A stretch of DNA of 64,000 nucleotides, from contig RWJK01001388.1 in assembly GCA_004335835.1 (NCBI GenBank), positions 79,329 to 143,328 of the forward strand. Direction: 5' to 3'. The notes under the pieces were generated by a model. The model saw only the letters and a list, made by a program, of their open reading frames with translations, made no database searches and had not been told where the DNA came from. A program made the position numbers and the translations under genes. The stretch comes from Scenedesmus sp. ARA3. Its lineage: Eukaryota; Chlorophyta; Chlorophyceae; Sphaeropleales; Scenedesmaceae. Position 1 is the stretch's first letter; each line of letters opens with the position of its first letter. Below, piece by piece: positions 664 to 63,942 of this stretch.

Positions 664-807
664 ACCGCTCACCCAATGTACTGCTCGCACGCAGCAGTAC
701 ACTATCCCGCTTAGTCCATGTACTGCTCCATGTGGCAGTTGCTCCAGCTGAGCTTCATCTCCAGTGTGCCGCTCACCCAATGTACTGCTCCCACATGGCA
801 GTACAAT
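664..807 (-). repeat. Tandem copies of the last exon's end beyond the stop codon
   Basis: The last 70 bp of the synaptotagmin-like coding region (815-882, including stop codon and SNCHVEQYMD codons) recurs at about 706-776 with few changes. The flanking 40 bp recurs at 664-700 and 770-807. The repeat period is about 105 bp. These copies lie downstream of the stop and would be 3' UTR. Confidence 0.85.
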
Positions 808-814
808 GTAGTGC

Positions 815-3800
815 TTAGTCCATGTACTGCTCCACGTGGCAGTTGCTCCAGCTGAGCTTCATCTCCAGCGTGCCGCTCTCAGCCTCCAGCAGCGGCCAGG
901 TGTCCTTCAGGTGCCCGTTGCGCGCCACGTCAGCGACAGGGATCTGCAGCTTGCCCAGCAGCTGGTCCTGGAAGCGGCTCTGCAGGAAGAGCGACAGCAG
1001 GTAGCAGAAAGTGTGAGGAGGTGTGTGAAGTGCGAGAGGGTGTGACTAGGATCTGCAGCTTGCCCAGTAGCTGGTCAACAAGGAAGCGGCTCTGCAGGAA
1101 GTGTGAACAAAAGAACGAGCAGGAATCAAGTGTGAGAATGTGTGTGAGGAGGGGTGGATGCGCCACGTCAGCGACGGGGATCTGCAGCTTGCCCAGCAGC
1201 TGGCCCTGGAAGCGGCTCTGCAGGAAGTGTGACCAAAGTTACGCCAAACAATCAGCAACGACTCCCGTAACACTGTGCCCTCTTACTGTGAGGTAGTAGC
1301 TGCAGCACCGACACACCATGCACCAAGATGTGCCCCATGCAAGACCCCTCGAGGCTGCGTGTGGCGTCCAGAATGCCCGCTTGTTTGTCACCCAGTATAA
1401 AACATTGACATGAACCTGAAGCTTATCAAACCCCGCCCTGGTCATCTGGCAAGACCATCTCCCTCACCTTGCTCAGCTTGAGGTTCAGAGTGGCGTTCAG
1501 GATGCCTGTCTTGTTTTTCACGCTGAGCGTGAGCACGCTGCCCGCGCTGATCATCACAAAGTCAAACGTCTCGCACCAGCGCGGCGTGTTGTCGTTGAAT
1601 TTGACACTGGTCTTCTGCGTCTCGCTGGGCCTGCGGAGTTGGCAGCAGCAGCAGCAGCAGCAGCGGCGGCAGCAGCATGTGCGAGACCGAGGGGCTTCAA
1701 GAGCGCATCAAACGTCAAAAGGCGTGTTGTTGTGGCATCAGCGGTCAGCAGCAGCAGCAGCAGTAGCAGCAGTAGCAATTGCAGGTTCTCCTCATCTACA
1801 TCTTCAAACAGAAGGCTGCAAGACAGCTTGAGTGCTGCACAAAACCTACTTCATGTGCGCTGCACCTCCCTGAAAACCACCTGCGCAGGTCATAGGCCAC
1901 CACCAGCATCTCCATGTATGCATCCGGGTTGGTGAAGCTGCCAACAGCCCTGACACCCTAGGCAGCTTCAAACAAACCCCTTGCACTGCGAAGACTCATT
2001 GTTACAACAAGCTGCCCACCTGCGCGGGTCGCAGTCCACCAGCAGCATCTCCACGTATGCGTCCGGGTTGGTGAGGCTGCCTGGCGTGGCCAGCTTGCTG
2101 GCCTTGAAGATGGTCACGGTCAGCAGCCCGCGCTGGAAGTCGTTGATGTTGCTGATGAACTGGCGCGGCCTGCAGGGGCGATCGCGACATGTTATGTTAT
2201 GTCATCTGTTGGAATATACGTGTGATGCGGCAGGGTGAGTGATGAGGTATGTGGGTGAGGTTACAGCTGTTGTGTGCAGCAGGTGGCAACTTTACTTTGC
2301 TGTGTTGGGGGATTGAAGGTGTGAAAGAGGGAGCTGTTGATGGTGGCAGGCAGTGCAGTGTAGCATGCGTGAGCCAGTAGTGTAGCATGCGTGAGCCAGG
2401 AGAGATCACATTGCTCCCAGATTGCTTCTGCTGCCTCGGTGTGCATGCAGAGGTAGTTGCGTGCGTCCCAGCGCACTCTGCTTCACAGCATGCAGTGAGC
2501 AGGACATGCAGTTATGGGTTTGCCGCACTGGCCGTATGTAACAAGTACAGCTGTGCTACATTACTTGTCAGTAACACACTCACTTTGGCGGAGTGAAGGG
2601 CACGTACTGCGCAAAGCCGCCCTTGACTGGTGTGAGCTCGATGTCATCATCAAAGGTGGGGTGCTCAAATGGCATGTACTGCAGCGTGATGTGCATCATG
2701 CCCACAGGCTGCAAGCAGGCAGCAGAAACATGCGGCAACAGCAGTGGTGTCAGCAGTCAGCAGCAGCAGTACATGTCCAAGGGGGTGGCTCGAATGGCAT
2801 GTACTGCAGCGTGATGTGCATCATGCCCACAGGCTGCAAGCAGGCAGCAGAAACATGCGGCAACAGCAGTGGTGTCAGCAGTCAGCAGCAGCAGTACATG
2901 TCCAAGGGGGTGGCTCGAATGGCATGTACTGCAGCGTGATGTGCATCATGCCCACAGGCTGCGAGCAGGCAGCAGAAACATGAGGCAACAGCAGTGTCAG
3001 CAGTCAGCAGCAGCAGTACATGTCAAATGTGGGGTGCTCAAAGCACATGAACTGCAGTGTGATGTGCATCATGCCCACAGGCTGCAAGCAGGCAGCGAAG
3101 AGGTGTGGCAACAGCAGCAGTCAGTCAATGTGGGGCGCTCGAATGACATGTACTGCAGCGTGATGTGCACAATGCCCCACCCACCACATGCCAATGCATG
3201 ATCAACACGGTAGTACTGCAAAACTCAACCCTCGCTGACGCGATTGATAAGTTGAAACAGCACACCTTTGTGCCCTCAACTGCTGTGCTGCCGTTGCCGC
3301 GCAGCACCACCTCCTGCTCCACCAGCACGATCTCCTCCTCTGCCTTCTTTGCGGCCTCCTCAGCTGCCTTCTTAGCTGCGTCCTCCGCCTCGCGCTGCTC
3401 CTTGGTGAGGGCCTTGCGGCGCTTCACCTCTGCAGCAGCAAATCACACAAAAAAGAACACACCGACAGAGTGAGAGGCACACCACTGACTTGACAACAGT
3501 GCGCAGCTAGGAGCACACAGCGCTTGGTGAGCGCCTCGCGGCGCTTCCCCTCTGCGGCAGCAAGGTTGCAGACGCAGCACATTGTCAGGCACAGGAGCGC
3601 ATGTCTGCATAACTGACAGGCCGTCCTCCGCCTCGCGCTGCTCATTGATGAGGGCCTTGCGGCGCTTGGCCTCTGCAACGGCAAGGGTGCACACGTATTG
3701 CATTGTTGAGAGCAGACAGCGACAGCGACAGCAATAGAGGGATGCATGCTACACAAGAGCAGCGCCTCACCTGCCGCTGCTGCCGCCTTTTTCTCATCTG

Positions 3801-4681
3801 CCAGCCGCTTCCATTCAGCCCACAGCGCTTTTTCATCCTCCTCACTCCAAGCCTCAGCAGCCTTAGGCACCCGAGCAGCAGCAGCAGCAGCCGCCGCCGC
3901 AGCCTCGGCGCTGCTGCTGCCGCTGGTGCTCGCCTTCTGTGCTGCTGCTGCCTTCTCTGCTGCCTCCATTTGTGCCGCTGCTGCAGCCTCTGCTGCTGCT
4001 TTGCGCTCCTCTTCGAGGCGCACCTCCTTTGCGGTTTTGGCCACCTGGGTGTTAAATTTGACACAGCACAGAGCTTGTTATGTTTGCAGCATCAATCAGC
4101 AGACATGCAGGGCAGATAACCATTGCTCGCAGCACAACATATCAGCGTCGGCATGATGTACAAACCTAGCTGGTGCAGCACCAGGTTGCCGGATTCAGCA
4201 GATCTTGACTTCAGTCAGCAGGCCAATGCGCTTGCCGCTATGCTGTGCCATGCTGCCGCTGACTGAACAGGCCGATGCTGTGCAAGGCTGTGCAAAGCTG
4301 AAGCAGCCATTGCACTCACCATCATGGGGATCTTGCTGTTACTTAGCATGCTGATCCTCTTGCCGCTACGCTGTGCAAGGCTGCGCAAGGCTGTGCAATG
4401 CTGTGCAATGCTGATGCAATCGTTGTGCTCACCATGATGATTGTCTTGCCTGACATGTCGCATGCCACTGTTTGTAACATGCTGCTTTGTTATGCATCCT
4501 CATTGAAGCAACACGCTGACTGTGACGGCCGTCTTGCTGATCCTCTTGCCGCTATGCTGTACCATGCTGTGCAAGGCTGTGCAATATGCTGATGCAATCG
4601 CTGTGCTCACCACGATGATTGTCTTGCCTGACATGTCAGGGGAGCTGCCGCTGCTCTTCATGGACACTAGCCGCTTCATCT

Positions 4682-4723
<42 letters not shown>

Positions 4724-5624
4724 CAGCAAACATCAGTCACGTGTAGTCCCTCGTGTCGAGCTGGGCGCCCCCATGCAGCAGTGCCAGCCCCATTGGTAGT
4801 CCCTTCTGCAATGCTGCACACCCCAAGCCCCTGAAACCTGGCTGGCAGCCAGCTTGCTGCTGCCCTGCTGTTGACAAACGCTCGTGCCAACTCGCCCAGC
4901 ACGCTGCTCCTGCTTGTGTAACACTTCCCTGCCCATGTCAGGTGAGCACCACGAGCCATCCCACAAACAAGCATGTGTGTGAGTGCACTGCCACATCTGT
5001 CTGACAGAATGCACCCATCTTGCTCATGCGCAGCAGCAGCAGCAGCAGCTGCAGCAACCCACCGCTCCTGTTGCGCCCGTGGCTGTCTTGGCGATGCCCT
5101 TGCTCACTGCCTTGAGCAGGCCTCCCCCGGCCATGTGCAGCGGCAGCACCAGCCTCTTCTCACTCATGGGGCTCTTGATCCAGTCAGCCAGGTGGTACGC
5201 CACCTGCAGGCAGCAGATCAAGAATAAGAGAATAATTGCGGACAAAGGACATGCTTGGTGAGCAAGCCACAGCAACATGTGCAGCGGCAGCACCAGCTTC
5301 TTCTCCTGCATGGGGTTCTTAACCAGTCCGCACGATGGTACACCACCTGCAGCGGTATATTTTAGATATGTGTGGCGTTTAGTATCAAGCCGTAAGAATG
5401 TGCAGCGGCAGCTGAATCTCCTGCATGGGGCAGCTGGTCCATTCACAAGCTCCCTTGATCGGGTGTGCCGGCTTCCAACTGAGGTCTCACAGCTGCCATA
5501 GCTTCTCCATTTCCTGTTCACTAGTGGCAGGATCCATCTGTCACTCAAGACACTATTATTACACACTGCAAACACCACCAAAACATAGTGTAATGGCGAA
5601 ACCCAGGATCGAACTGGGGACCTG

Positions 5625-5660
<36 letters not shown>

Positions 5661-7692
5661 TTCGCCCTGAACTTCACAGCAGAGGAGTGTGAATTCGGGT
5701 GCCATGCTGCTCCACTCACCAGGGACTGGCTGATTGTTTGCTGCATGACAGTGGTGTCACCGCAGCAGTTGAAGTCCCTGCAGCGCTTGAAAAAAACAGC
5801 ACCCCGGCGCGCCTCGCTGCATTTGCCACCCTGTGACGGACCACTCTCTTGCCACCCCTGTGCACACTGTGCAACCCCTCTTCTCCCACCCACCACACAA
5901 GTGCCGCACCTTCTCTCCGCCTGTTGCCGGGTCACTTCAAATGGCCTTCAGACTACCACAACACGACAAGCCACACGCATGCAGCACAGCGACTGCAACA
6001 CACCAGCGCAACACTTCCTTCACACACTAGTGTGCAGCCGGCAACTGCGCCGCCAAGCAGGGCTACAACTGAGCAGGTTTGGTCTTTAACAAAGCCCTCA
6101 CCGTCTCCCCCCCAGTGGCTGGGTTGCCCTCGATGGCCTCCTCACTGAAGAACACCTCCGCAGTGCCCAGCAGCAAGTTCTACTCAGAAACAAGCCACAC
6201 ACATGCGGCACAGCCGCAACAACGCACCGGGGCAAACATGTTGCTCTTAGGAGACAAAACATTTGTCGTTCTAGGTATCGAAGTTGACGCTACGCCAAGC
6301 GCGCCAACACCTGCCAGCATGACGAGTAAAAACCACATCGGCCCGCACCTTCTCCCCGCCTGTTGCCGGGTCGCTCTCAATGGCCTCCTCACTGAAGAAC
6401 AGCTCAGCAGTGCCCAGCAGGTCGTCCGTGGGGCACAGCCGGTCGTAGTCGTACACCTGCACAACGCAATTCAGAAATAACAATAACAAAATGACAATGA
6501 TAACGTCGTGTTTGAAGACAATTGTCGACACAGATTTCATGCACACAGAGAGCAGAGACAACAAGCATAGTGCTTGTGGGGCGCAGCCAGTCGGTTGATG
6601 CTGCGGGGGCTGCAGGCATGCATTTGCGATGCCGAGGTGTTCCCTGCAGCCGCTGAAAGGCACGCACAATGCATGCAAAAGTATATTGAGCAGCAGCAGC
6701 CAGCAAGGTGTACTTCTGGCCCAGCCGCAGCCATAGTTATACAGCTCGATGACTCACATCCGAAACTACAAACAAATCCCACAACAACAGTGAATCCAAT
6801 CTCTGCGCCGCGCCGCACCTTGATGGAGAGCTTCTGCTGCTGGAAGTCATCCACCACCATGAAGAACTCCTGGTTGAACACCGGGTTGTTGCTGCTCTTG
6901 ACCGTCTTGCTGCGCTGCACGCGGCCCTCGCGGATCTGCATACAGCACATTTGTCACAGGCAATGTGGCCGTCAAATGACACTTGTTAGTCGACACCAAG
7001 TAAATGCTGCTCTTGACCGTCTTGCTGCGCTGCACGCGGCCCTCGCGGATCTGGAAACACATTATAAAAATTGTTGTGACAGTTTGTGTGACAGAGGTGA
7101 AGCGTGATATGGGGTGCAGGCATGTCAGATCAGCAGGTGATGCAGGGTGTGACCAGCTGCGATTGAAAGGAAGGAAACAGGAAAGGTGGCTGCAAGGTTG
7201 CATCAGCCGCTGCAGGGCGTGCAGAAACGCTAGCGCTTCCACACCACCGACAGCTACGCAGGATCATATGCACCACAGGGATGCTTGGTGGCCGCATCAG
7301 CAGTGATGCACAAGCCCTTGCTGCCGTTGCATTTGCTTTCTGCTGTTGAAGTTGCTTGCTGCTGTTGCATATGCTTCGCACGCGCAGTGCGTACTTGTTC
7401 ACCAGCACCACACAAAATGCATTCTATTCTTCGTTGTTTACTGCACCCTCAGCCTGATCTGCAGGAACTGCACCTCCACACACGCACCTCAAACACCACG
7501 TAGGGGTCGCCCTTGGTCAGCAGGTCTGTGGTTTTGAGGTTTTCAATCTTGGTCAACGTCACTTTGACCATGCCCTGCGGCTCCGGGGGCACCCCAAAGT
7601 TGGTCATCAGCGGCACACTCACACTGTTGGGGTACAGCAGCACGTCCTTGAGCACCATCTGCACTCATTAAAGCAGCAGTGACATGCAGCAG

Positions 7693-7739
<47 letters not shown>

Positions 7740-7829
7740 ACAGTTCGTCATCAGCGGCACGCTCACACTGTTGGGGTACAGCAGCACGTCCTTGAGCACC
7801 ATCTGCACTCATTGAAGCAGCAGTGACAT

Positions 7830-7873
<44 letters not shown>

Positions 7874-9097
7874 AACTGTTCGTCATCAGCGGCACGCTCA
7901 CACTGTTGGGGTACAGCAGCACGTCCTTGAGCACCATCTGCAACAGATAACAACAAACACGCGGATCAGCAGCATCAGCAGCAACAGTTGGTCAAGAGCG
8001 CCATCTGCGGTACAACAGCAAAACAACAAGTGCAGCAGCAGCAGCAGCAGCAGCGTCCCGAGCAGCCTGCACTGAAGCCATACTACCTGTCAAAGACGAA
8101 GCCACACCGTGTGTTGGCCAAACATCGGGGGCTTTGGGCAGGCATCTATAGCAGCAACACCCTCAGTGCAGCAAGTGCTGCTCACACCGAGCGCCCAGTC
8201 CACCGCCGGCTTCTAAGCACAACACAGCAGCACGCACACAAGCACGCAGAGAGCCACACACACGCAGCCGCAGGGCTGCCGCCGCTGCTGCTGCTGCTCA
8301 CCCCAATCGCCCAGTCCACCACACGCTTACTCATGGCAGCTGCTCAGCACCACATACACAACACACAGCCCCTAGCTACAACTGTGCTGACTGACTTTTG
8401 CCTGTCTGCCCAGCTCACCCCAATGGCCCAGTCCACGGCCTGCTTCACTCCCGGCAGCGCCATCATGTCGGGGCCGTTGAACAGGCGCAGGCTGTAGTCC
8501 AGGTGCATCGGCTGCAGCAGGCTCAGCGTGGCGCCGCCTGCAAATGCACACAAAACAGACAGTGTTCAGGCGAGCAGGCGGCAATGTGAGCAGGCCAAGC
8601 ACAAAGGGCGCAGGCTGTAGTCCAGGTGCATCGGCTGCAGCAGGCTCAGCGTGGCGCCGCCTGCGGACACACAAGACAGTGTTGTGTTTGGAAAGGCCAG
8701 CAGGCGGCAATGTGGGCTGGTCAAGTGCAACAGAAAGGGAGAACATGTGGTATGCCCTGTGCTGCGCTCCCCGGTGCCATGCTGCGCTGTGCTGCAAGTC
8801 CCTGCATAAACTCTGTTCAATCAAATTGATTGAACTCAAACCCACCGATGCAGGGTATGGTGTCCACCATGTTGGGCACCACGTGCTCCCCTGTGTTGTG
8901 CTGCGCTGTGCTGTAGTGTCCTACCTAAACATCAAAATTGTGATATGAAAACAAAAACCACGACTCACCGATGCAGGGTATGGTGTCCACCATGTTGAGC
9001 ACCACGCGTGCCAGGGCCTTGTACTGGATGTGGCTGATGTGCACGGGGATGACCACGCGCGCAGGGCCCAGCTTCAGGTACACCTGCACATCAAACT

Positions 9098-9136
<39 letters not shown>

Positions 9137-9479
9137 GCGGCGGCAGCATGGCATGAGCTGGTGTTGGTCTGCACATGCTTCGGCTACTCGAGCAGAGCAC
9201 AACATGTGTCTGCACACAGATAGCTAGGCCTGCGGGTGACCACTCGTTGCTGACCCTGATGAGCGGCATCAAACTGCGCCTTGCAATTGCAGCACTTGAA
9301 AAAGGAAGCTACAACGCACGGGCATGTGACCGCCAGCACTGCAAACAACCTAGGCTCACCACTGCGTTGCTGCCCCAGATGAGGGGCATCTCCATGATGC
9401 AGGTGTCTTCCGCTGTGCTGTACACCTTCATGCCCGCCACACGCACAGGGTGCTCGCCCAGCGTGAAGTACTTGTCTGC

Positions 9480-9578
<99 letters not shown>

Positions 9579-11319
9579 GACGACAATGTCAGGAACATAG
9601 AGCGGCCAGAGCCCCTGTAGCCGGCGCACTGGAAAAGCAATGGCTAATGACAGGCAATCGTCATGCTGGTTCTGCTGTGCTGCACAACAAGTTGCGGCAC
9701 TAATGGCAGACCTTGTCATGTGCACAGCACGAACCATGGTGCAACGTGTTGTTACATTGTCAGGTTTGTTACTTTGTCATGTTACATTGTTATTTTCTCA
9801 CCTGCGATGTGTGGATCCAGGTGGTCCGCGTCCATGATGCTGTATGGCCCCAGTGTGATGTCATCAATCAGCGACAGCACTCCAGGGATCTGCAGATAAA
9901 AACAATTTGTACAAAGACGGATTAAGCAGCAGTACAGGGAGAGCAAAAGCATGGCAGAGGTGATAGTGAATACGAGGCAGCAGTGCTGCGCAAGGCAGCC
10001 GATGTTCCAATTACGAGCTGTCGTGCAAGGTGAACAGGCTTCCACATAAGCAATGTTCCTGCAGAAGTAGACGCCCGTGATGCAGCACAACGCTTTTGAA
10101 CGTTCTACAGCTGCAACATTTTTCACAGCTGCGGCTGCGGTGCAGCTGCGGATGCGGTGCAGTACATGATGAGCAAGCGCTGCTGTCTTTGCCTGCCTGC
10201 TTGCTGCGCTGTGCGGAGCAGTGTGTAAACCCTCACCGCGTTCAGGTTCTGCTGCACGATGGGTTTGACCGCTTTGGCCACCTCCAGCAGAATCGCTGAT
10301 GTCAGCTTGGGCCACAGCAGCCGAATCATGCGGTTGATCATCACCCACTGCAGCAAAACGGTAGACAAACAACAAGACATCAGCATGTGTGATTCAAGCA
10401 TTGCATTAGCTTGGGCAACGGCAGCCGAATCATGCAGTTGGTCATCGGCTGCAGCAGCAAACACCATGGCAGACACCAGCACCGGCATTTCAGGATGCAC
10501 GGCGTCAGCTGAAAGCATCAGCACAAGCCTGTGCAAGCAACGTAGGGTGCATGGGCATGCGCTGAACAGCATGCTTTCATGACAGCTTTTTTAACAACCA
10601 CCTGCTGACCTGCTCGCGCATGCTGCACTGCATATGAGCCTGCAACCATGTGGAACTAGTGCTGCTGCTGCTTTCAGGGCAGGTGCTGTGAGCAACTTTG
10701 ATTGATCAGTTGTCTTGCAATCCTGGCCACAGGCACACGTTTCCTGACATGGCCAGCTGTGCGGCTGACTCAGAAGGCCAGCACCCGCGGCTGCTGCTAT
10801 CTGAAACTTGTCCTGCAAGTGTTTCGAGTCTAGCAGCATCCTTCAAGTGTCCTGCAAGCCTGGAGATACCACGGGTGGGCAACAGCAGTGCCTAGCTGTC
10901 AAGCTGACAAGCAGCAGCACCAACTCACTCTGTCGTAGTCAGGCCAGAAGGTCCACTCAGGGGTGAGTGGGATCATGCCGCGCATCTCATCTGTCACATT
11001 GGCACACGCTGGCGTTCGGATGTTGTCATTCTTGTCTGCTGCTTCTGTGATGAAGTTAAAATCCTTGGGGCGGTCACCAGAGAAGACAGCGCTGCCAATC
11101 TGTGGTGGGTGAGTTGCAGTGTCAGTTGCAGTAGCATGAGCATAACTTAAGACACGTGAAATGCGTCCGGTGCTGATGTCTGAAAGCGTTGAGCCCGTTG
11201 CTGCACTGCTGCTGCTGCCTGGTGGTACAGTCACCAGCTTGTCAGCTGCTGTTGCCACGACTCACCCCCACGCCGGCTAAAGCCCCTAGTCCAGCTCCGA
11301 TAAGCGGTCCAAACACCAT
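815..11319 (-). CDS. Synaptotagmin/E-Syt-like SMP and two-C2 protein, 832 aa, 19 exons
   Basis: Exons on the minus strand, in order: 11319-11266, 11099-10929, 10347-10237, 9889-9802, 9475-9360, 9095-8969, 8537-8419, 7658-7488, 6935-6819, 6456-6349, 5785-5720, 5203-5063, 4679-4611, 4044-3771, 3429-3266, 2708-2584, 2169-2020, 1630-1468, 979-815. All phases agree and sum to 833 codons. Seen: a glycine-rich hydrophobic N-terminus (1-18), an SMP domain (about 60-265, including PEWTFWPDYDR and GMKVYSTAEDT), C2A starting near 282 (MVKVTLTKIENL, KGDPYVVFEV, NPVFNQEF), an Ala/Glu/Lys-rich coiled coil (about 487-615), then GMMHITLQYMPFE as the last C2A strand, and C2B (about 686-815; NPDAYVEML, DNTPRWCETF). 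Family knowledge: plant SYT1 and E-Syts tether the ER to the plasma membrane, bind Ca2+/phospholipid by C2 and move lipid by SMP. The start is the first ATG before the hydrophobic segment. Weakest exons: 5785-5720 and the 5063 donor. Many exon edges are tandemly copied into introns. Confidence 0.87.
1046..1230 (-). repeat. Two extra copies of the exon 19 start, with acceptor
   Basis: The acceptor and first 40-50 bp of exon 19 (about 930-985, encoding SRFQDQLLGKLQIPV) recur at about 1046-1106 and 1165-1230. The copies keep the CTGCAG acceptor, and the nearest also keeps the start of the VADVA codons. One copy reads DQLLTS-like through a small insertion. Confidence 0.85.
1870..1950 (-). repeat. 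Degraded copy of the exon 17 end (C2B)
   Basis: About 75 bp resembling 2015-2090 of exon 17 (codons for NPDAYVEMLLVDCDPRR and the donor) recurs here with roughly 15 percent changes and a small deletion. It lies in the intron just downstream of exon 17. Confidence 0.75.
2671..3185 (-). repeat. Five-unit tandem array over the exon 16 start
   Basis: The acceptor and first 40 bp of exon 16 (GMMHITLQYMPF codons) recur at about 2671, 2796, 2921, 3042 and 3145. The first two intervals are exactly 125 bp, with near-identical intervening DNA. The later two intervals are 121 and about 103 bp and are more diverged. Only the innermost copy (exon start 2708) continues into the conserved exon. Entry at 2833 runs into a stop soon after the repeat. 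Confidence 0.93.
3520..3685 (-). repeat. Two extra copies of the exon 15 start
   Basis: The acceptor plus the codons for EVKRRKALTKEQREAED (exon 15, 3429 downward) recur at about 3622-3680, in frame as EAKRRKALINEQREAED, and more degraded at about 3525-3560. The copy at 3680 has an intact acceptor and the correct phase to follow exon 14. It lacks a good donor, so it is a candidate alternative or decaying exon. Confidence 0.85.
4312..4465 (-). repeat. Two partial copies of the exon 13 end
   Basis: The end of exon 13 plus donor (codons SPDMSGKTIIV then GTGAGC, 4605-4640) recurs clearly at about 4428-4460 and weakly at about 4315-4337. CTGTGCAATGC-type sequence lies between them and is itself repeated. 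Confidence 0.75.
5277..5432 (-). repeat. Two partial copies of the exon 12 middle
   Basis: Codons for ADWIKSPMSEKRLVLPLHM (exon 12, about 5130-5190) recur at about 5277-5345, with an acceptor-like CTGCAG, and shorter and more diverged at about 5398-5430. Both copies lie in the intron that also carries tRNA-Phe. Confidence 0.8.
5580..5583 (-). terminator. Pol III T-run terminator of tRNA-Phe
   Basis: A four-T run on the minus strand follows the tRNA-Phe 3' end by about 10 nt, the usual Pol III stop signal. The run is the minimum length, so readthrough is possible. Confidence 0.55.
5594..5666 (-). tRNA. tRNA-Phe(GAA), intron-less
   Basis: The minus strand reads as a 73-nt cloverleaf: 7-bp acceptor stem GGCGAAA/TTTCGCC, a D arm with AGCTCAGTTGGGAGAGC, an anticodon loop with CTGAAGA (anticodon GAA), and a T arm with GTTCGATCC. 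It closely resembles eukaryotic tRNA-Phe. Discriminator base A; CCA is not encoded. A four-T run (minus strand; plus 5580-5583) about 10 nt downstream fits a Pol III terminator. The gene lies inside the intron between exons 11 and 12 of the synaptotagmin-like gene, on the same strand. Confidence 0.95.
5890..6180 (-). repeat. Two degraded copies of the exon 10 end
   Basis: The end of exon 10 plus donor (codons EEAIESDPATGGEK, 6340-6420) recurs at about 6098-6180 and about 5893-5945. Both lie downstream of the exon in gene direction. Confidence 0.8.
7003..7055 (-). repeat. Extra copy of the exon 9 start with acceptor
   Basis: About 50 bp encoding IREGRVQRSKTVKSS is nearly identical to 6892-6939. 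It retains a CAG acceptor, then diverges before the rest of the C2A exon. Confidence 0.9.
7741..7942 (-). repeat. Two extra copies of the exon 8 start, separated by CTG tracts
   Basis: About 60 bp encoding MVLKDVLLYPNSVSVPLMT plus a CAG acceptor occurs at 7658 downward (real exon), at about 7744-7818 and at about 7879-7940. Copies are nearly identical and separated by CTG-rich tracts (minus-strand sense). This suggests that the unit copied is tract plus acceptor plus exon start. Confidence 0.93.
8160..8665 (-). repeat. Copies of both edges of exon 7
   Basis: The end of exon 7 plus donor (codons for AVDWAIG, 8413-8450) recurs at about 8290-8325 and 8165-8210. The start of exon 7 (codons GGATLSLLQPMHLDYSLR) recurs at about 8605-8665, on the other side. 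Both the acceptor edge and the donor edge of one exon have therefore been copied outward into their own introns. Confidence 0.88.
8840..8890 (-). repeat. Copy of the exon 6 end
   Basis: About 45 bp encoding VVPNMVDTIPCIG-like sequence is almost identical to the end of exon 6 (8966-9010). The donor has changed from GTGAGT to GTGGGT. Confidence 0.88.
9481..9577. repeat. (GCA)32 microsatellite at an intron 3' end
   Basis: An uninterrupted run of about 32 GCA units. On the gene strand it is (CTG)n ending in CCGCAG directly before exon 5 of the synaptotagmin-like gene (exon start 9475). It stands where a polypyrimidine tract should be. Confidence 0.98.
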
Positions 11320-22421: not shown

Positions 22422-22516
22422 CATGTATGGTACTTCACTACATGTATGGTACTTCACTACATGTATGGTACTTCACTACATGTATGGTACTTCACTACAT
22501 GTATGGTACTTCACTA
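22422..22516. repeat. 19-bp minisatellite, five exact copies
   Basis: The unit CATGTATGGTACTTCACTA occurs five times head to tail without change, followed by a partial CATG. The complete identity of the units suggests recent expansion. Confidence 0.98.
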
Positions 22517-23079
22517 CATGCTGCGCAGTGGTGGCATGTGCAGCAGCAGCTCTGCAAGTGTGCTGATCTGTCCGGCAGTGTTGTTCACCAGTGCTGTAGC
22601 AGAGTCTGCACGTGATGTGCAAATCACTGAACTGGTCAACTGACGGTTGTACCACAATGTGTATGAGGGTCTGCGATCTGCAGCAAGCAGCTGTTTCTCC
22701 AGCACAGCGCTGTTCACAGAGAGTTTGCAGATAGCATGTAAGCATGGAAGTATCCTGTACGTTCGAGCGCTGTGTGTGTTGTGCAAGTTCTACTCTGTGC
22801 AGGGAGTGTATGCGACGGTTTGCTTGAGGCCCTCCGGTGCTGTGTGCGCCGCACACCGGCGGCCGGTTGTCACACCGCACGGTGCGTGGTAAGCACACAC
22901 ATGCGGTGCATGCATGCAGTGCTGTGTTCCACATGCACAGCATTGCTCTGCTAGCTGCGGTGCAATAGTGCACATCAACGTTGATGTACACGTTAACGTG
23001 CAGCAGGTTGCAGCCCGTTGACGCAGGCAGCGTCCCTCGATTGCTGCCAGTAAAAGTCGTGCTGCGATGGTCAGCGCTG

Positions 23080-35117: not shown

Positions 35118-36451
35118 GGCTTTGGGGCTTAGCTGCTGAATGTTTAGGCATGCGTCTGCTGGCCAGCACACACACCACTGCTGCCATGTCCTGCACATTG
35201 CATTGCGGCAATGCGCGCCACGCTGCGCTGCATGCTACGCTGAATGCTGTGCTGCATGCTGTGCTGCATGCTGTGCTGCATGCTTTGCTGCATGCTGCGC
35301 TGCATGCTGTGCGGCATGCTGTGATGCGTGCTGTGCTGCATGCTGCGCGGCATGCTGCGCGGCATGATGTGCGGCGTGATGCGTGCTGTGCTGCGCTGCG
35401 TGCTGTGCGGCATGCTGCGCTGCCATGCTAGTGGTGGCTACCTGGTATGTAGGGCAGGCCACCTGCTGAACGTGCGCCAGGGTTGCCTGCTTTCCTTTTG
35501 CCTTTCAGCACAGGAAGTCGCCACACTGCTCCTGCTGGCGCTTTGTAAGTCCTCTGGAGTGCTCCTCCCGCAGTGGCATGTACCAACCACCACACCCACA
35601 CTCAAACCTACACAGCGCCCCACACCCACAGCTTTCTCAGCATGCCTGCTCCACCCCTGTACTCTCTGCTAACGCCTGCGCATTGCAATGCACTTTGCAC
35701 TGTGCTGTGCAGGTGACCGACTGGGCCGATGGCTACCTAGCCCGCCGCTTGGGTCACACCTCCAAGCTTGGATCTTATTTGGATCCTCTGGCAGACAAAG
35801 TGCTGATTGCATCTGTGGTGGGCTCAATGGGCTGGAGCGGAATACGCCACCCCCGTGCTTTCTGCTCATGTTTGCGCATTGCAATGCACTTCTTTGCTTG
35901 ATGTCTAATGCCGTCCTCGTTGGTGACGTGCTGTGCAGGTCACCGACTGGGCGGATGGCTACCTCGCGCGCCGCCTGGGTCACACCTCCAAGCTTGGGTC
36001 TTATTTGGATCCCCTGGCAGACAAAATGCTCATTGCATCTGTGGTGGAATCCATCACCGCTCCCTGCAATGGCACCTGACGTACCACCCCCCACCCACAC
36101 TGCCTTCTGGTCATAACTGCGCACCCCCATACTCTCTGCTAATGTCTGCGCATTGCAATGCACTCTGCACTGTGTTGTGCAGGTGACCGACTGGGCGGAC
36201 GGCTACCTCGCGCGCCGCCTGGGTCACACCTCCAAGCTTGGGTCTTATTTGGATCCCCTGGCAGACAAAGTGCTCATTGCATCTGTGGTGGGCTCAATGG
36301 GCTGGAGCGGAATGCTGCCTGCTTGGCTGGCAGTGCTGGTAGTGGGTAGGGACAGTGCGCAGGTGGTTGGCATGTTTGTGTACCGGCTGCGCATGTTTGG
36401 CGGGCGGTGGCCGGGCGCGGCGGCGTTCTTTGATGTGGATGCTGCGGTGCC

Positions 36452-49305: not shown

Positions 49306-51610
49306 ATGATGTCCTGCGCTCGAGCAGTGCTGCTGACGATCAAAGCGCTTTTCACGGAGTAGGATCAGCAACAGGTAGCCTGAAGACCAGCAATGGCATG
49401 CTTGCAGGACATGCAGTGTGGAGCGCGCAGACTTGCAGGAAACGAGCATGTTCCGCGTCATTGCCTTGCCAGGTGCCGCTAGCTGCACTGCGCTGCTTGA
49501 CATTGAATCTGCTTTGAGACACTGAGCACTGCTGGCGGGTGTGGTGCATGATGTCCATTCTGCTGCTTAGGTGGGCTTGAGAGCATCTGCCAATCATCAG
49601 CTGGCTGCTGCTGCCGCTGCTGCTGCCGCTGCCGCCGCTGCTGCTGCTGCTGCTGCTGCTGGCGCCAGGTGGGCCTTGAGACCATCTGCGTGATCATCTG
49701 CTCGCTGATGCTGGTCAGCGTGTTCAAGACGGGCCAGAACTACATGTCGGAGGAGGAGGAGGCGGAGTTCATGAACCGCTGCAAGGCCTTCGTGGACAGC
49801 TACGGGTGAGGCTATTGCAGACAGACAAGTACAGAAAGTTATCAGTGAGCATCAGCCAACGCAGCCTCTGCAGCCATAAGGAGGTGGAGTTCATGACCTG
49901 CTGCAGGCCTCCGTGGGCAGCTACAGGTGAAAGGGTTGTGCTGCTGTGACTATTGGTCATATGATACACGCTGGCCATATGGGATTGTACAGCAGCAGAG
50001 TGCATGGCTCGCTGCAGGGCCTTCGTGGGCAGCTACAGGTGAGATGGTTGCGCTGCTGCAATTGTCAGTCATGACATACACACTGGCCATGCGCTTTTGT
50101 AAGGATGCGGAGTTCATGACCTGCTGCAAGGCCTTGGTGGGCAGCTACAGGTGACAGGGTCGTGAAATGTTTAATGTCTGTAGTTTCAACATCTACAGGT
50201 GAGCTGCATGCCCTGCATTTGTGACTACACGCGGCCATAAGGAGGCGCAGTTTGTAGCAGCTGCAGGAGCCGTTTCATCTGAACTTGTACAACGAGCCGC
50301 ATGTTCTGCAGTTGGCAGCTACAGGCCGGCGAGGCTTGGTGGCCCGCCTGGCGTGCAGCACCGGCCGCGGTTGATATTGGCAGTCAGACGTGTACGTGCC
50401 ATGGTGACTGTGTGTCCCTGCTGCTGGTTGCCGCTGCCGCCTGCCTGCAGCTGGGGCGACCGGCCGCCCGCTCCCGCGCGCTCCTTCGCCATGCACTGGG
50501 CGCAGCGCTGCGAACAGAGCTGGCGCAGAGCCTTCCTGCTGTTCGGGCTAGGTGGGCGCAAAGTTTCGCAAGATAGGCGTAGCAAGTCAAGCTTCCGTTT
50601 GATCAGCAGCAGGGCTGCCATGTCTGTTTGCCAACGCTCCTGCTAGCAGGGGTGGCAGCTCTCCGTGTGGTGCACAGCTGTCCCTGCTATCCGGTCTATG
50701 TGGGTGGATTGCCACATGTTAGCAGGACAAGCGCGTGCTTGCGCAGCACACGTGGGCAGTGTCTGTTGCCGATGTCCCGTACTTGCAGGAGTGAAGGCTG
50801 GCACCCCTGCCTGCGCAGCATTTAATGCTGTTGCCTCATCGTAGCTCCGTCACAGCCTGCTTACAGCTTACTGTATTGCCATGAGCCTGGAACCTTTGAA
50901 ATTGTGCTGTGGTGTGTTGCTTGCAGGAATCCCCTGCCTGTTCGCCAACCTGTCGGTTGCGGCCTGGATCAAGTTTGACCACAGCTTGCTGTCGCAGCTG
51001 CTGACCACAATCGTGCTGGTGCTTGCGCTTGTGTCCATGGGCTACAGCCGAAAGTGGAGTGCACATATACTGGAGACTGAGCGCACTGAGCTAGTGAGTG
51101 CTTGGTGTGACTGTTATTACTTTAAGTTTTGGTTGCACATATGATGTTTACACATGGCTTGGGTGTTCAGCCTGCGGCAGCAGTGGGCGTTCAGGGACGC
51201 ACCTGACCTGCCTTGCACAGGCTGCCTGCAGGGCTGTTTGTAACAGCCACCTGTTGTGCTGTGGAGCGGGGCTTTGTAGGAGTGCGCGCAGCAAACGCGT
51301 GCGTTGCAAGGCATTCAGCGATGCGCAGCACACACAGGGAATCACTGCACATGGCAGTGCTGCTCGGAGAGGTTGCTGCGGCCGCTGCTGTCAGCTGCCG
51401 CTGCTCTCTGCTGCTCATACCGCGTGTCTGCCTGGCTGCTTTGATGTGTTGCAGGGCGCGGAGCGTGTGCCAACAGCTCCCCAGGGCTTGCCGTTTGACT
51501 GGCATCGGCGGCCGGCGTTCCAAGGGCGTACACTGTCGCAGCGCATGTCAGCAGTGACAGCCGGGTGCAGCAGCGATGGCGCTGCCGCAGTGGGGGTCAA
51601 TGGCACCTGA
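48365..51610 (+). CDS. ORAI-like four-transmembrane protein, 324 aa, 6 exons
   Basis: Exons 48365-48522, 48966-49221, 49669-49805, 50451-50551, 50927-51093, 51455-51610; phases agree. The N-terminus (1-95) is charged, Trp/Arg/Glu-rich and helical. Four hydrophobic segments follow: about 98-117 (AALISGFALSAFLQFDF), 126-155, 210-233 and 238-258. The ISGFALSAF stretch matches the LSGFAMVAM start of ORAI TM1, and the overall topology with cytosolic ends fits ORAI/CRAC Ca2+ channels, which in animals open on STIM binding. At the place of the ORAI1 selectivity-filter Glu106 this protein has Gln114, with Asp116 two residues on. Channel function is therefore inference. Start: ATG with the whole charged helix behind it. 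The C-terminal exon (52 residues) has no recognisable motif. The exon 3 end is copied at least three times in the intron. A generic four-TM protein of another family is the alternative. Confidence 0.68.
49870..50335 (+). repeat. Three to five copies of the ORAI-like exon 3 end
   Basis: Sequence for EAEFMNRCKAFVDSYG plus donor (49765-49810) recurs at about 49880-49930, 49998-50045 and 50105-50155, each ending GGCAGCTACAGGTGA. Weaker matches lie at about 50238-50280 and 50315-50330. Units are about 110 bp apart and also share flanking intron sequence (ATGATACACGCTGGCCAT type). Confidence 0.9.
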
Positions 51611-52367: not shown

Positions 52368-54492
52368 ATGGAGCTGCTGGGAAAGGGCCGTTGGGGCCTG
52401 GCAGCGTTGCTGCTGCTCGGCTGCCTGGCAGTTTGTACTCTTGCTGGCGAGAACAACCACAGATACAAAGATGGCGAGGCAGTAACGCTTTGGGTGAACA
52501 AAGTCGGACCCTACAACAACCCGCAGGTTTGTGCTAGACTGTGCTGATCCATCAAGTGAGCAGTACTGCAGTTGTCTTGCCAGGCATCCTGTCGCCAACC
52601 ACTTGTACCAGCAGCACCCTCTTGCCAGCCTTTAGCATTCTCCCCAGGGCTCATCACCACTTCAGCATTATACCATACCGCTGCCGGTGCATGATCTGCC
52701 TTGCAGGAAACGTACAACTACTACGCCCTGCCATACTGCAAGCGGCACCCGCAGCAGAAAGATGAGCATAGCTGGGGTGGCCTAGGCGAGGTCCTGCAAG
52801 GCAATGAGCTCATCAACAGCCAGCTTGACATCAAGTTCAAGGGTGGGTGAAGTGTTTAAGCACACAAGACAGCAGCAGATGCACCTGTGTTCCAACTGGC
52901 ACGGAGGGTGCAGCTCAACCAACGTGCATGCAGCAGTTGCACTTGTTGCAGGCACGTCATATGCAAGCAGAGGATGTGCTTTACTGTCTATGCACTTATG
53001 CATACCTGCAGCTATGCTGATGGCATAGCAGCAGCACTCGCTTGGATGCCCTGCCCGTGTGCCAGCCACTCGTCACAGCACAACTGCTAGCATCTGACTG
53101 TATGTGCGTGGTAGAACAGCGTTCTCAGACCTGCTAACATGGTGTTACTGCTGTTTTGTCTGCTTGTCCACCGCAGTGCCTGTGCCCAAGTCTCCCATCT
53201 GCTCCCAGAAGCTCAGTCAGGATGATGTGGAGGAGTTCAGGTGACAGCAGCAGCAGCACCGGCAGCAGCAACAGCAGCAGCAACAGCAGCAGCACTGGCG
53301 GCGGTTGTTGCGGGAAGCTCCGTTGCCCAGATGCTTCTACAGCAAGCGAGCAGCTAGCTAGCTGGACAGTTGCTTCCGACTTAGCTGGCACGTTGGGAGC
53401 ACCCTGCCTGGCCGGCACGCGAAGCTGACATAGCTGACTGATGACAGCAGCAGCTGCAGCAGCAGGCGGAGCAGTAGCTGCATCAGCCTTGTGCAGCGCT
53501 AGTCGGCCTAGCAAGCCAACAACACCACAGAGCAGCAGCAGCAGCAGCAGCAGCTGTCACCAGCAGATGTGTTGCTAGTGTGTCTGCGGCGTCCTGCCAT
53601 GCTCCTTGCACTTCACATTTATGCTTTGCAGCAGTTTGCAGCAGCCACGCCAACTGCAGCCATTCAGTTAGCAAACACCAGGCCTGCTCCATTACCACCT
53701 GCTTTCCTGACACGTGCGCAGGTCTGTGTTGCAGCGCCAGTACTGGTGCGAGCTGTTAACAATGCATAACGCGTTGCACTCACGCTGCCTGCTGCCTGCA
53801 GGTATGCGGTGCAGCACCACTACTGGTACGAGCTGTTCATGGATGAGCTGCCCGTGTGGGGCTTTGTGGGAGAGCTGAAAGGGGCCCCGGGGGCGGAGCC
53901 GGACCTGCTGCTGTACAGCCACAAGCAGCTCGACATCAGCTACAACGGGGACAGGGTGAGGCGGGTGCAGCATCAAACTGGGGATGGTGTGACCATGGCA
54001 GCAGCAGCAGCAGCAGAAGACAGTGTGAGCATGTGGCAGCGTGTCTTGGGCGCATCTCTGCGCTGTGCTGATGCGCTGCTGAACCATCACAGCAGCAGCC
54101 ACAAGAAGCTAGACATCAGCTTCAAGGGGCAGGGTGGGACGGGCGTGTGTTAACAGTGCGGTGTGGTGAGTCGAGGGCTAAACCATAGCAGCAGCAGCAG
54201 CAGCAGCAGCCACGACCAGCAGGTTCAGAAGGGTACAGACACAGCAGCAGCAGCAGGCATGGCGCGCTGTGGGTGGCAAAGGAGGAAGCCAGCTGCTGTG
54301 GAGATCTGGTTTTTACTGGCCGCAGCAGCAGAAGCGGCAGTTGGACGCTTTTGGAGTTGGAAGCAGGGGCTTGAACATAAGCGAGTTGACAGCAACCAAT
54401 CAGACACCTTGCAGTCAGGTTCCTCTCCTGGATCGCCTGACAGTCCACTCGCTGCAGTTGACACCTTGTACTTGTCATGGTGCCTGCTCCAC

Positions 54493-54535
<43 letters not shown>

Positions 54536-57500
54536 AGATCATCCACGTGAACCTCACCTCGGGCGAGCCCGTGCTGCTCAAGGAGGGGCAGCAGGTGACC
54601 TTCACCTTTGCCGTGAACTGGCTGCCCACCAGCACACCCTTCGGGGAGCGCTTCGAGCGCTACCTGGACTACAACTTCTTCGAGCACAAGGTGCGCTGTG
54701 TTGCGGCTGCTGCTTCTGTTGTCATTTTTGCCTCTCTGGGTTGCTGTGCATGATGCCACGTAGAGGTTCGAGGAGCGCTTCGCGCGGTACCTGGACTACA
54801 AATTCTTCGAGCACAAGGTGCGGCGGCTGCAGCCGTTGTCCTTTTTGCCTCTGTGGGTTGCTGTGCATGATTCCACGTAGAGGTTTGGTTTTGAGCGCTA
54901 CCTGGACTACAACTGCTTCGAGCACAAGGTGCGCTGTGTTGCGGCTGTTGCAGCGGTTGTCATTTTTGCCTCTGTGGGTTGCTGTGCGTGATGCTTGTGT
55001 TGTGAGGGTTTGTGGAGTGATGCGAGCGCTACCTGGACTACAACTTCTTCGAGCACAAGGTGGGGCAGTTGCGGCATCTGCTGGTTTCGTGTTGGTGGTT
55101 TGTTGGTTACGTTGCTTTGAGTACCAGCTCTACAAGCACAAGGTGTGGCGGTGCGGCCTTTCTCCTTGCTGCCTGTCTGCTTTGCGTCTGGGATGCATGC
55201 ATGCACGTGGTGCGTTGGTTACGCTACCTGGACTACAGGTTGTTGAGCACAAGGTGCGGCAGCTGCGGCACTTGTCTGGTCCGCCTGTCTGATAGGCGTA
55301 TTTGAAGCATTAGTAGGAAGTGGAGTGGTCTGGGCTGCAACTATAACATCATGATTTTCACCACACCTCCTGCTGCGCTGCGTGCCGCAGATCCACTGGT
55401 TCTCCATCTTCAACAGCTTCATGATGGTCATGTTCCTCACGGGGCTGGTGGCCATCATCCTCATGCGCACGCTGCGCAAGGATTATGCGCGGTGAGCGGC
55501 TGCTCTTTGGACCTCGGCCGCATTCAACACTTGAGCAGCCAGTACAATTCAGCAGCCACAAATGCTTACCTCAAGTTGAAGCCTGTAGCAGCTACAGCAG
55601 GCTCGCGCCAGAAAATTCATGGACAGTACCCATTGTAAACCACACTTTTTGTTTCTTCCTGCTTTTGAGAGGGATCTCTGTTTGTTACTTCAATGCGCCT
55701 GTCGATATCAACCACCTGCGCAGCTACGCGAAGGAGGACGGCGACCTGGAGAGCCTGCCGTATGCATGCAGATTGCACGTGCATGATCTGTCGCAAACTC
55801 ATGCCATGCGATCCTGTGCTTGCATCCCTCATTGGTATCTGGTAGCCAGATTGCTGCAATCTAGCTGATTCGCCTTTCGATCCGCTGCTGTTTCCAAATA
55901 TCTGTGCAGCTACGCCAAAGAGGACGGCGACCTGGAGAGCCTGGAGCGTGCATGAGTATGCGACATGCCCAACACCTCATTTCTTTGTTTCAAATCATGC
56001 CGTTGCTCCCCTGTGTTTCTTGCCGCAGCTACGCCAAGGAGGACGGCGACCTGGAGAGCCTTGAGCGCGACCTGAACGAGGAGACGGGCTGGAAGCTGGT
56101 GCACGGCGACGTGTTCCGCGCGCCCAGCCAGCGCATGCTGCTGGCGGCCTGCGTGGGCACGGGCGGGCAGCTGTGCCTGCTGGGCCTGTTCGTGATCCTC
56201 ATCACCATCATGGGCACCTTTTACGAGGTGGGTTGAGTGGGTTTTTCTGTGTTATTTAGCGGCTGCGTTGCGCTGGTGGTGCTGGTTGGTGCTCTGCTGT
56301 GCCTGGTGGTGCTTTGCTGTGCCTGTTGGGCCTGTTTGTGATCCTCATCACCATCATGGGCACCTTTTACGAGGTGGGTTGGGTGGGTTTTGTGTATTTC
56401 ATTCGGCGGCTGCGCTCGCTTGCGATGCTCGTTGGTGCTCAGCTGTGCCTGCTGGGGCTGTTCGTGATCCTCATCACCATCATGGGCACGTTTTACGAGG
56501 TGGGTTTCGGTGTTTTATTTTTTTAAGATTTAGCGGCTGCTCTGCAGTGGTGGTGCTGATTGGTGCTCTGCTGTGCGTGGTGCTTTGCTGGGCCTGCTGG
56601 GGCTGTTTGAGATCCTCATCACCATGATGGGCACCTTGTATGAGGTAGGTTGTGGTGGTGCTCTGCTGTGCTCTTGATGATACTGTACGTGTACCATTCG
56701 GCTGCTGGTGAAGGCGGCAGCAATCTTGTGGCGTTGGTTTGGGTGCCTGCGGCCCCATGGCGTGCCTGCATCTAACCGGATCTTGGAACCAGGCATTCAT
56801 TCGAATCTCGGGATCATCCAGATCTCGAGATCATCAGGTTCATCTGAATTTCCAGGTCAAATATTCACCTGGCTCCCAGATCATGCTGCCCGCTCCCAGC
56901 AACATGCCTAACCTCGGACTCCTCTCTGCTGCGCTCCACTCCACTCGCCTGACAGCTGCACCTGCCTTCAGCCGCACCTTTTGCAGGAGCGCGGCACCAT
57001 CCTCACGATTTTCATCATATAATTTGTGCTTACACTTAATAACATCTTCACCCAATGCTAAACCCGTTCCGTGCTGTGTGCCTAATCTGCCTCCATGTGC
57101 CCCATTGCTGCCTGCCTTCAGGAGCGCGGCACCATCCTCACGGTGTTCATCGTGTGCTACGCGCTGACCTCTCTTGTGGGGGGCTATGTCAGCGGAGGCC
57201 TCTACGCCCGCATGGAGGGCAAATCCTGGATCCAGGGGATGCTGCTGACAGCGATGCTCTTCCCCGGGGTTGTTTTCGGCATCGCCTTCGTGCTCAACAC
57301 GATTGCGATCGCCTACGGCAGCCTGGCTGCCGTTCCGTTTGGCTACATTGTCATCGTGCTGCTGCTGTGGGCGTTCCTATCTTTCCCGCTGTGCATAGTG
57401 GGGACGGTCATCGGGCGCAACTGGAGCAGCACGCCAAACCACCCCTGCAGGGTGAAGCGCATCCCGAGCCCAATCCCGGTGCGGCAGTGGTACCTCTCGC

Positions 57501-61226: not shown

Positions 61227-61338
61227 TGGCCGCGCGCCGGCGCGTGGCGGCAGCAGCGGTGCGGAGGGCGGCTTGACGCTGGCAGGGCTCAGTGCACAGC
61301 TGTCAAAAGCTGGGGGTGCTGCTGGTGGCACCCCACGC

Positions 61339-61375
<37 letters not shown>

Positions 61376-62060: not shown

Positions 62061-62120
62061 CTGCTGCAGCACCTGCGGGCGCTGCACCCCAGGACACTGC
62101 AAGGCTGTGATGCAGGTGAG

Positions 62121-62153
<33 letters not shown>

Positions 62154-62257
62154 CAGGGTACCGGTGTGTTCACATGTGCAGCAATGGCAGGAGCAACACA
62201 CAGAGTTACAAACACTAGCGCCTGACTGTTATGCCTCGTTTGTTGCCGTGCCTCACT

Positions 62258-62290
<33 letters not shown>

Positions 62291-63942
62291 CACAGCCAAG
62301 CGGCTGACGACCCTCATCAGCGACTGGCTGCGCATCAGCAGGCAGGCCATCTCACCCAAGGTGGCTGCTGCACTGCAGGCCTTTGCGGAGCACCACCCAC
62401 AGGTGTGGTGTGCAGAAGTGGTACTACAGTAAAACCTCAAAGTAACGACACCCCTGGGGACAACCCAGAGTGTTGTTGCTATGAAGTGCTTTTACTTTGT
62501 GACAGTTATTAACAGTGCAGCTACAGTTATTATCAGTGGCACTTTGGGGACAGCTCCAAGTGTCGTTGCTATTCGTATGTTGTTACTTCTGGTGTCCTTA
62601 CTTCGAGGTTTTACTTTACCATTGAGATGTTGATGACTGGTAGTGGTACTGCAAGAGTTTCAACAGGCTAGCAACCAGCACTGATGTGACTGGTTGCCTT
62701 ACAATTATCTGCAGAGCGTGCCGCCCCAAACTTTCATTGAGATGTTTTTGGCTTGCGCGTCTCGCATTTTCTGGCACCTCCAAACCAGCTGTTGCAAAAG
62801 TAACGCGCTGCATTGCTTTGCACTGCAACCTAAGGTGGTTTGGGAGTGGCTCCCTCCTCTGGGTTCACCTTTTGCTATGAAAACGTTGATGACTCACTGT
62901 TGAGCAGGCTGGCCGCGCTGCAAGTGCCTGCTGCACTCCAGCTGGAAACAAACTCAGCAACTCACATTTGTTGCATCTCCGGTTGCTTGCAGATTCGGCC
63001 ACCAGCTCCTGCGGTCTAGTGCACTGCAATTGCCTTCTGCACCTGCAACTGCCCCACAGATCCTCGGGCTTCGGTGGATGTCCAAAATCGTGCGTTCATT
63101 TTGCATGTCCGTGCAGGCGCTGCCCTTCATTGATGACTCGCTGCTGGCCAAGGCTGGCCGCGCTGCAAGTGCCTGCTGCACTATAGCTCAAAATAAACTC
63201 AATGACACTTGTTGCGCCTCCACTTGTTTTCACATGTGGCCACCAGCTCCTGTGGTCTGGTGCCCCGCAACTGCTGACACTGTGCGTACTGCACAAGCAT
63301 CTGCACACACCACCCTCTGATCTTGCAGGTGCTGCCCTTCATTGACGACTGACTGCTGAGCAGGCTGGCTGCTCTGTCGGTGCCTGCTGCACTGGCGGCA
63401 GTGGCGGCGCTGGAGGCCACGGAGTTCAAACCCAACTGTGAGTTGCTGCAAGGCCTATGCGCAATCAGCAGCTGTTTCAGCAGTCACATCGGTATAGGGT
63501 TCTTTTACCTTGCTTGGTGTTGTGTTAACCACGCAAAAGAGAGTTCATGCTTTGTTTGTTTGTAATGGCACTGCGTTTGCGTGATGATGTCGCTGGCATT
63601 TGTACTGCTCTGGCAGCAGTCGCGGCACTGGAGGCCACGGAGTTCAAACCCAACTGTGAGTTGATTGCACTATCAGGCCCCTGTAAAGACAGTCTCTGTT
63701 GCAGAGGCTGTTACAAAACTGCATATACGAGTGTTGCAGTGGCTGCCGTTATCTCTGCACAAGCAGCAGCTGCTACAGCGGCTGCCATGAGGCGTGCCTT
63801 GCAAGAGTGGAATTTCAACAAATCAGCTTTTGTGACAGCACAGCCTTGCTCATATAGTCATCGCTGGTGTCAATTTGCACCCCTCAACAGGCAGCCGCAG
63901 CAGTAATTTTTGGCATACTGGCATTGCGCCCAGCAGCATGTG

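Follow-up and report, generated by a model that had tools for sequence, protein, structure and literature searches.

Tandem copies of coding-exon edges are found recurrently in a 64,000-nucleotide stretch of the green alga Scenedesmus sp. ARA3 (contig RWJK01001388.1, positions 79,329 to 143,328; hereafter the window). Adjacent copies in the same orientation, carrying the end of an exon, its splice site and the beginning of the intron, are located beside the intact exon. The copying is widespread but uneven, and extends past the window. Its best explanation, which we rate as slightly better than an even bet, is the repeated tandem duplication of a unit of about 120 bases that crosses the exon edge. 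Such duplications would be tolerated, since the inner splice site, next to the intact exon, goes on working.

Nine gene models were made by hand in the window, corresponding to SYT-like (17 exons), EBP (5), transporter (10), CLS (2), ORAI-like (6), RRM (3), protease (4), TM9 (8) and right-edge (4) genes. Self-comparison of the CTG-masked window identified 77 pairs of near direct repeats (spacing below 1.5 kb, at least 32 bits), against a mean of 0.5 and a maximum of 1 in six dinucleotide shuffles. The pairs fall into 34 clusters: 20 span an exon edge (mean 9.8, maximum 18 in 2000 random placements), 9 more consist of an exon piece and noncoding DNA, 1 lies within one exon, and 4 involve noncoding DNA alone (a 19-base minisatellite and three matches of 20-28 bases). 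Window self-matches are local and direct in 55 of 59 cases; 2 are inverted. An edge-by-edge search revealed local copies at 32 of the 118 coding-exon edges, 57 copies in all, and no edge passed in the control, in which each region adjoining an edge was shuffled once. The recurrent, local copying of donor and acceptor edges alike, described in the initial annotation, is thus real. Two of the 32 edges are doubtful: the CLS "start", which is rich in CAG, and SYT exon 16, where the junction lacks conservation. Junction-level comparison in the window took in 51 of the 57 copies at 29 of the 32 edges, omitting these two edges, both SYT stop copies and two copies without a conserved junction. The richest edge is the transporter exon 5 donor, where six extra copies, the maximum already noticed, extend across 739 bases. 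The copied edge of SYT exon 17 has no splice site, being formed by the stop codon and the 3' untranslated region (3'UTR), and a splice site is therefore not required for copying. The EBP, RRM and protease genes had been described as free of copies, and are indeed so: none of their 16 testable splice edges is copied, against 27 of 80 in the other genes (Fisher P=0.005).

The survey was extended to contig C1018 up to base 183000 (minus the window), to one 10-kb sample per contig in six others, parts of which read N, and to two TM9 paralogue loci; a further piece of 889 bases was set aside. Outside edges were predicted by a small gene finder, for which the window served both as training and as tuning set. 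At a penalty of -8, 83 of its 108 predicted edges in the window were exact (true edges, 118), with base-level sensitivity of.70 and specificity of.96; outside predictions were made at -7.5. Testable edges were 466 out of 486, the remainder being low-complexity or N-containing. Copies are found at 88 of the 466 splice edges (window 27/96, outside 61/370), both at donors (47/240) and at acceptors (41/226). In the sampled contigs copies are commoner at exon edges than in noncoding DNA remote from exons: the 61/370 edges compare with 16 of 777 noncoding anchors located far from exons. Of 52 outside clusters, 38 lie at predicted exon edges (18 +/- 3 by random placement, maximum 25 in 300), 3 are exonic and 11 noncoding. 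Nine regions, mostly classed as noncoding, were judged by eye: several resemble missed exons, array interiors or coding repeats, and a few appear truly noncoding. A duplication with a spacing of 612 bases, predicted as noncoding and unlike the arrays of about 120 bases, is located at C1018:166888-167889 of the joined 183-kb stretch. The finder sometimes called copies as exons, and some edge pairs are consequently counted from both sides. Copied edges amount to 64/304 in C1018, 10/37 in L025, 3/24 in L021, 2/17 in L024, and 7/20 and 2/14 at the TM9 paralogue loci; three of the six other contigs have none (L022 0/20, L023 0/23, L027 0/7). No clustering of copied edges in 10-kb bins was detected in C1018 outside the window (P=0.45).

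The nearest copy is found at 101-147 bases at 56 of the 88 edges and at 212-258 bases at 17; of the remaining ones, 7 are below 101, 6 at 148-211 and 2 beyond 258. The pattern is the same for donors and acceptors. Exons no shorter than 120 bases account for 98 copies, 75 of which include 30-69 bases of the exon. Full-unit tandem pairs (50 of 185 pairs) are 65-92% identical, and 39 have a predicted coding part. The intron side aligns in 48 of the 59 copies found at spacing 90-150.

Arrays are present in 23 of the 50 window introns, whose median length is 561 bases against 334 in the 27 introns without arrays. They cover 7048 of 22517 intron bases (31%), and once they are subtracted the median of array-bearing introns falls to 300. 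This remainder of ordinary length fits additions to otherwise ordinary introns. The proposal that copying builds introns holds as to their length; no new introns were seen in the window gene models, in which copies are located in or beside existing introns. Import of intron-side stretches from elsewhere was rejected: the two tested as dispersed elements gave one genome match each, in a search that skips very common words. The suggested tie to CTG tracts did not hold up. On the intron side, a tract of at least 5 units lies no further than 500 bases from 21 of 88 copied and 117 of 378 uncopied edges (P=0.2), and CTG tracts as a cause were discarded for lack of association. Genome-wide, (CTG)7 occurs at 85,430 forward and 83,153 reverse sites in 87 Mb, and the same pattern read backwards at 0 and 2 sites; examples of CTG tracts in the window are found at 9481-9577 and 63944-64000.

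Copies had been said to diverge with distance. This is correct for indels on the intron side, which rise with copy rank (.032,.058 and.085 per base at ranks 1, 2 and 3); intron-side substitutions are.083,.140 and.113. Exon-side codon positions 1 and 2 are steady (.051,.049,.068). In an alignment of 143 copies, differences are.155 at third and.054 at other codon positions, and a second alignment gives.061/.065/.155 for the three positions. Indels in the copies are mostly frame-shifting (33/34 in one alignment, 40/42 in another), and the ratio of third to other positions is 2.26 in out-of-frame donor copies. Both observations disfavour translation of the copies; translated read-through products were rejected as source of the synonymous pattern because out-of-frame donor copies display it as well. 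Also rejected was a mutational process in which C to T changes would predominate in the repeats, as substitutions are counted in both directions.

The model of the SYT-like gene, located at 815-11000, aligns without gaps to the Tetradesmus obliquus protein OEZ86_005594 (P0121), with 98% identity and 13 residue differences. Seven of these fall in copied stretches, and correspond to eight copy codons: 6 match the OEZ86_005594 residue, none that of this genome, and 2 neither. Relatives share the OEZ86_005594 residue at several of these sites, as judged by eye from an alignment, and the simplest reading is accordingly that the ancestral state survives in the copies, the exon having changed afterwards. 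An origin of the copies from another allele would also fit. That the copies hold residues of another strain argues against fresh errors of assembly.

The copies, their spacing, their association with exon edges and the longer introns are observed directly; we infer from them a mutational origin and a selection filter, and copies normally not spliced in. Genes would undergo recurrent tandem duplication, with a preferred unit of about 100-150 bases and at times of roughly double that length, and the duplicates that last would be those lying across the border of a coding exon with noncoding DNA. With its own splice site still working, the intact exon would leave the protein unchanged. A partial exon copy and a spare splice site would remain in the intron, and repeated events at one edge would generate arrays and longer introns.

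Several points weigh against such a history. It explains neither the unit size nor the synonymous-biased likeness of exon halves after intron halves stop aligning. Decay was simulated under assumptions of our own (observed base rates, 8% of exon replacements accepted, chosen indel rates), and the simulated copies were put through the same detection and alignment as the 143 real ones. Copies dead from birth give a ratio of third to other codon positions of about 1.5, and 2.47 is observed in the second alignment (edge-bootstrap 1.97-3.18). Synonymous and replacement changes are 326:295, against about 0.6 in the simulation; 9 of 76 copies with at least 4 differences (6 edges) have no replacement, against about 1% or less. 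The intron side aligns in 80 of the 143 copies, against 86-99% in neutral simulations, and 52 of the 63 copies lacking such alignment lie at 150 bases or more. The hypothesis of single tandem duplications that simply decay neutrally fits neither codon positions nor intron-side alignability, and was rejected. A simulation accepting only 30% of replacements in copies comes closer (ratio 3.4-3.6, 64-89% aligning). The ratio is 1.91 (1.46-2.46, an interval including the simulated value) for copies below 150 bases, and 3.09 (2.42-3.97) for those at 200 bases or more. Copies near the exon thus come close to simple tandem duplicates, and it is the distant ones that are odd. We lean to exchange with diverged functional alleles as the source of the exon-half pattern. 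The edge association has its own weak points. Noncoding anchors within 250 bases of an exon have copies in 77 of 723 cases, though these are partly array interiors, and outside models are less sure because both training and tuning of the gene finder drew on the window. All the 11 youngest full-unit pairs (those at least 85% identical among the 50) include predicted coding DNA. Chance predicts 5.7 over the whole stretch (P=0.0006), which suggests targeting of edges by the mutational step; within gene neighbourhoods chance already gives 7.75 of 11 (P=0.018). Part of the edge association of older copies may result from slower loss of the exon half.

A process directed at exon edges, provoking the copying of the unit of about 120 bases there, is possible, if on balance unlikely. 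Hybrids of spliced RNA with its gene, a positioned nucleosome or paired nicks could act as triggers; these are ideas, not results. The coding nature of the youngest pairs over the whole stretch, the narrow size of the unit and of the copied exon part, and the near absence of strong duplication from window intergenic DNA all argue for it. The significance is nevertheless modest within gene neighbourhoods, longer persistence of the exon half could yield part of the association, and some duplications outside the window, though few, are noncoding. It is rather unlikely that an edge-directed duplication process not described before, with its quantum of about 120 bases, occurred via recombination of strongly diverged alleles and wrote a large share of the intron DNA. 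Unlikelier still is recombination between strongly diverged alleles, with exchange failing at exon edges and copies being former functional alleles; the premise is that exons match between alleles and introns do not. Differences that are mostly synonymous, the more so in distant copies, intron sides of distant copies that mostly do not align, and SYT copy codons mostly carrying the residue of the other strain and never that of this genome are all in line with it. Neither the up to six different copies per array nor the spacing of about 120 bases is predicted, however, and several of the six residues are shared by relatives, so that the ancestral state may simply have been retained in the copies.

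It is very improbable that the copies have a role, be it as alternative exons or as decoy splice sites, and that selection keeps their exon half. GT or AG is kept in 120 of 141 scored copies (donors 68/77, acceptors 52/64), and divergence is coding-like; retention of the dinucleotides would equally be left by slow decay. A usable opposite splice site accompanies 0.30 of acceptor and 0.26 of donor copies, with no excess over controls (0.40 and 0.34), and spacing has no frame preference (remainders 0, 1 and 2 modulo 3 are 51, 42 and 50). Cassette mini-exons were discarded for these reasons. Judging from sequence, the copies do not look like cassette exons, and the splice-site variety attributed to them is unproven. 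The persistence of the codon pattern in out-of-frame donor copies and the frame-shifting indels also argue against function, and copied segments were found neither in the SYT protein OEZ86_005594 nor in a relative's partial transcript-derived protein (P0123). A T. obliquus TM9 paralogue in UniProt (P0131) does include, beside the single regular segment, one identical in sequence to the translated copy at L028 2501-2560. This may reflect splicing or an annotation error; the gene finder also called copies as exons at the TM9 paralogue locus. Least credible of all is an assembly artefact, in which allelic or overlapping pieces were joined end to end. Graph breaks in a heterozygous genome would be compatible with a favoured unit size and with interruptions at exon edges, but full-unit pairs are 65-92% identical, copies contain indels, six different ones are found at one edge, and SYT copies hold residues of another strain record. 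One copy is moreover found inside P0131, whose assembly may not be independent.

The individual event is of a type already known, of which the density, the preferred unit and the coding-like divergence make a new form. In the potato RdRp gene, tandem duplication across an intron-exon boundary produced a new intron (PMC4974935). There as here the duplication crosses the boundary and inherits splicing signals; the potato example is a single case yielding a new intron, whereas 88 of 466 edges, a preferred spacing and additions to existing introns are observed here. Introns are also known to be gained by tandem duplication (PMC3443670), which similarly alters gene structure and can leave coding sequence intact. 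In that model a new intron arises from duplication of an exonic AGGT, whereas the unit described here lies across an edge that already exists, and no new intron was seen. Clusters of mutually exclusive exons are also tandem copies in which exons stay similar and introns diverge (PMC6071210). The exon parts described here are in contrast partial, with neither a second splice site nor a frame preference. Copies are arranged head-to-tail, in up to 7 units, as in minisatellites and tandem repeats, but are tied to coding edges, and their exon and intron halves diverge differently. Introner elements are another instance of recurrent growth of intron DNA. They resemble the arrays in this respect, and differ because no dispersed family is found here, window self-matches being nearly all local and direct. 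Recurrent, regularly spaced exon-edge arrays genome-wide were not found in titles and abstract openings of the mainly open literature, among the matches listed.

Copied exon edges in the window (numbers in brackets are spacings in bases)
Edge	Positions	Strand	Copies
SYT-like exon 17 coding end, stop codon and 3'UTR	658..878	-	unit 104; second, weaker match at 668
SYT-like exon 17 acceptor	979..1217	-	2 (112, 238)
SYT-like exon 15 donor	1880..2019	-	1 (139)
SYT-like exon 14 acceptor	2708..3182	-	4 (125, 250, 373, 474); last without conserved junction
SYT-like exon 13 acceptor	3429..3672	-	2 (122, 243)
SYT-like exon 11 donor	4432..4610	-	1 (178)
SYT-like exon 10 acceptor	5203..5346	-	1 (143)
SYT-like exon 9 donor	5909..6348	-	2 (247, 439)
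SYT-like exon 8 acceptor	6935..7050	-	1 (115); intron side unrelated
SYT-like exon 7 acceptor	7658..7937	-	2 (144, 279)
SYT-like exon 6 donor	8185..8418	-	2 (117, 233)
SYT-like exon 6 acceptor	8537..8660	-	1 (123)
SYT-like exon 5 donor	8845..8968	-	1 (123)
SYT-like exon 4 donor	9240..9359	-	1 (119)
SYT-like exon 2 acceptor	10347..10451	-	1 (104)
Transporter exon 3 donor	17109..17229	+	1 (120)
Transporter exon 4 donor	17633..17808	+	2 (95, 175)
Transporter exon 5 donor	18156..18895	+	6 (124, 270, 382, 507, 621, 739)
Transporter exon 8 donor	20657..20881	+	1 (224); GT lost
CLS exon 2 acceptor	35712..36182	+	2 (244, 470); up to 131 exon bases copied
ORAI-like exon 3 acceptor	49570..49668	+	1 (98)
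ORAI-like exon 3 donor	49805..50150	+	3 (121, 233, 345)
TM9 exon 4 acceptor	53721..53801	+	1 (80)
TM9 exon 4 donor	53955..54133	+	1 (178)
TM9 exon 5 donor	54690..55253	+	4 (127, 238, 369, 563)
TM9 exon 7 acceptor	55723..56028	+	2 (119, 305); intron sides unrelated
TM9 exon 7 donor	56227..56644	+	3 (146, 272, 417)
TM9 exon 8 acceptor	56986..57121	+	1 (135)
Right-edge exon 4 acceptor	62872..63328	+	2 (212, 456); far one without conserved junction; weak model
Right-edge exon 4 donor	63437..63655	+	1 (218)

The 8 exons of the TM9 gene (52368-57934) are translated into 592 amino acids, and the protein is 100% identical to the annotated T. obliquus protein OEZ85_003860, on which ground the window is attributed to this species. 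When TM9 and seven other models were checked for stops, only the transporter and right-edge models were found interrupted, the rest being open. The former has 1 stop, in the last exon. The latter, a weak model, has 3, and part of its first exon is probably in the wrong frame. An early in-frame TGA in right-edge exon 4, at about 63350, may be a real stop, or reflect a wrong model or a base error. A tRNA-Phe (GAA) gene (5594-5666, minus strand; Rfam tRNA, 66.5 bits) is hosted in a SYT-like intron, on the same strand as the gene. The CLS intron contains a 12-base array (GCTGTGCTGCAT; 35222-35429) of about 17 copies with 83% matches, and a 19-base minisatellite of 5.2 copies, 100% identical, is located in intergenic DNA at 22422-22520. 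The genome assembly consists of 1567 contigs for 87.27 Mb. That of strain UTEX 393 measures 107.7 Mb, with 7.8 introns per gene and a mean intron of 462 bases (PMC5966456); the two assemblies therefore differ at least in size.

The origin of intron length is an old question, and about a third of the window intron bases are found in exon-edge arrays. The copies are graded, and their order and age could be worked out. Provided that the quantum of about 120 bases and the preference for edges hold genome-wide, the mutational step of intron growth would become testable in a culturable alga. Gene finders can mistake copies for exons, as seen with the one used here, and a UniProt entry contains such a segment. 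The copies seem to keep older states of exon edges, and introns may thus record past coding variation; should edge-directed recombination between alleles be true, introns would be archives of former exon alleles.

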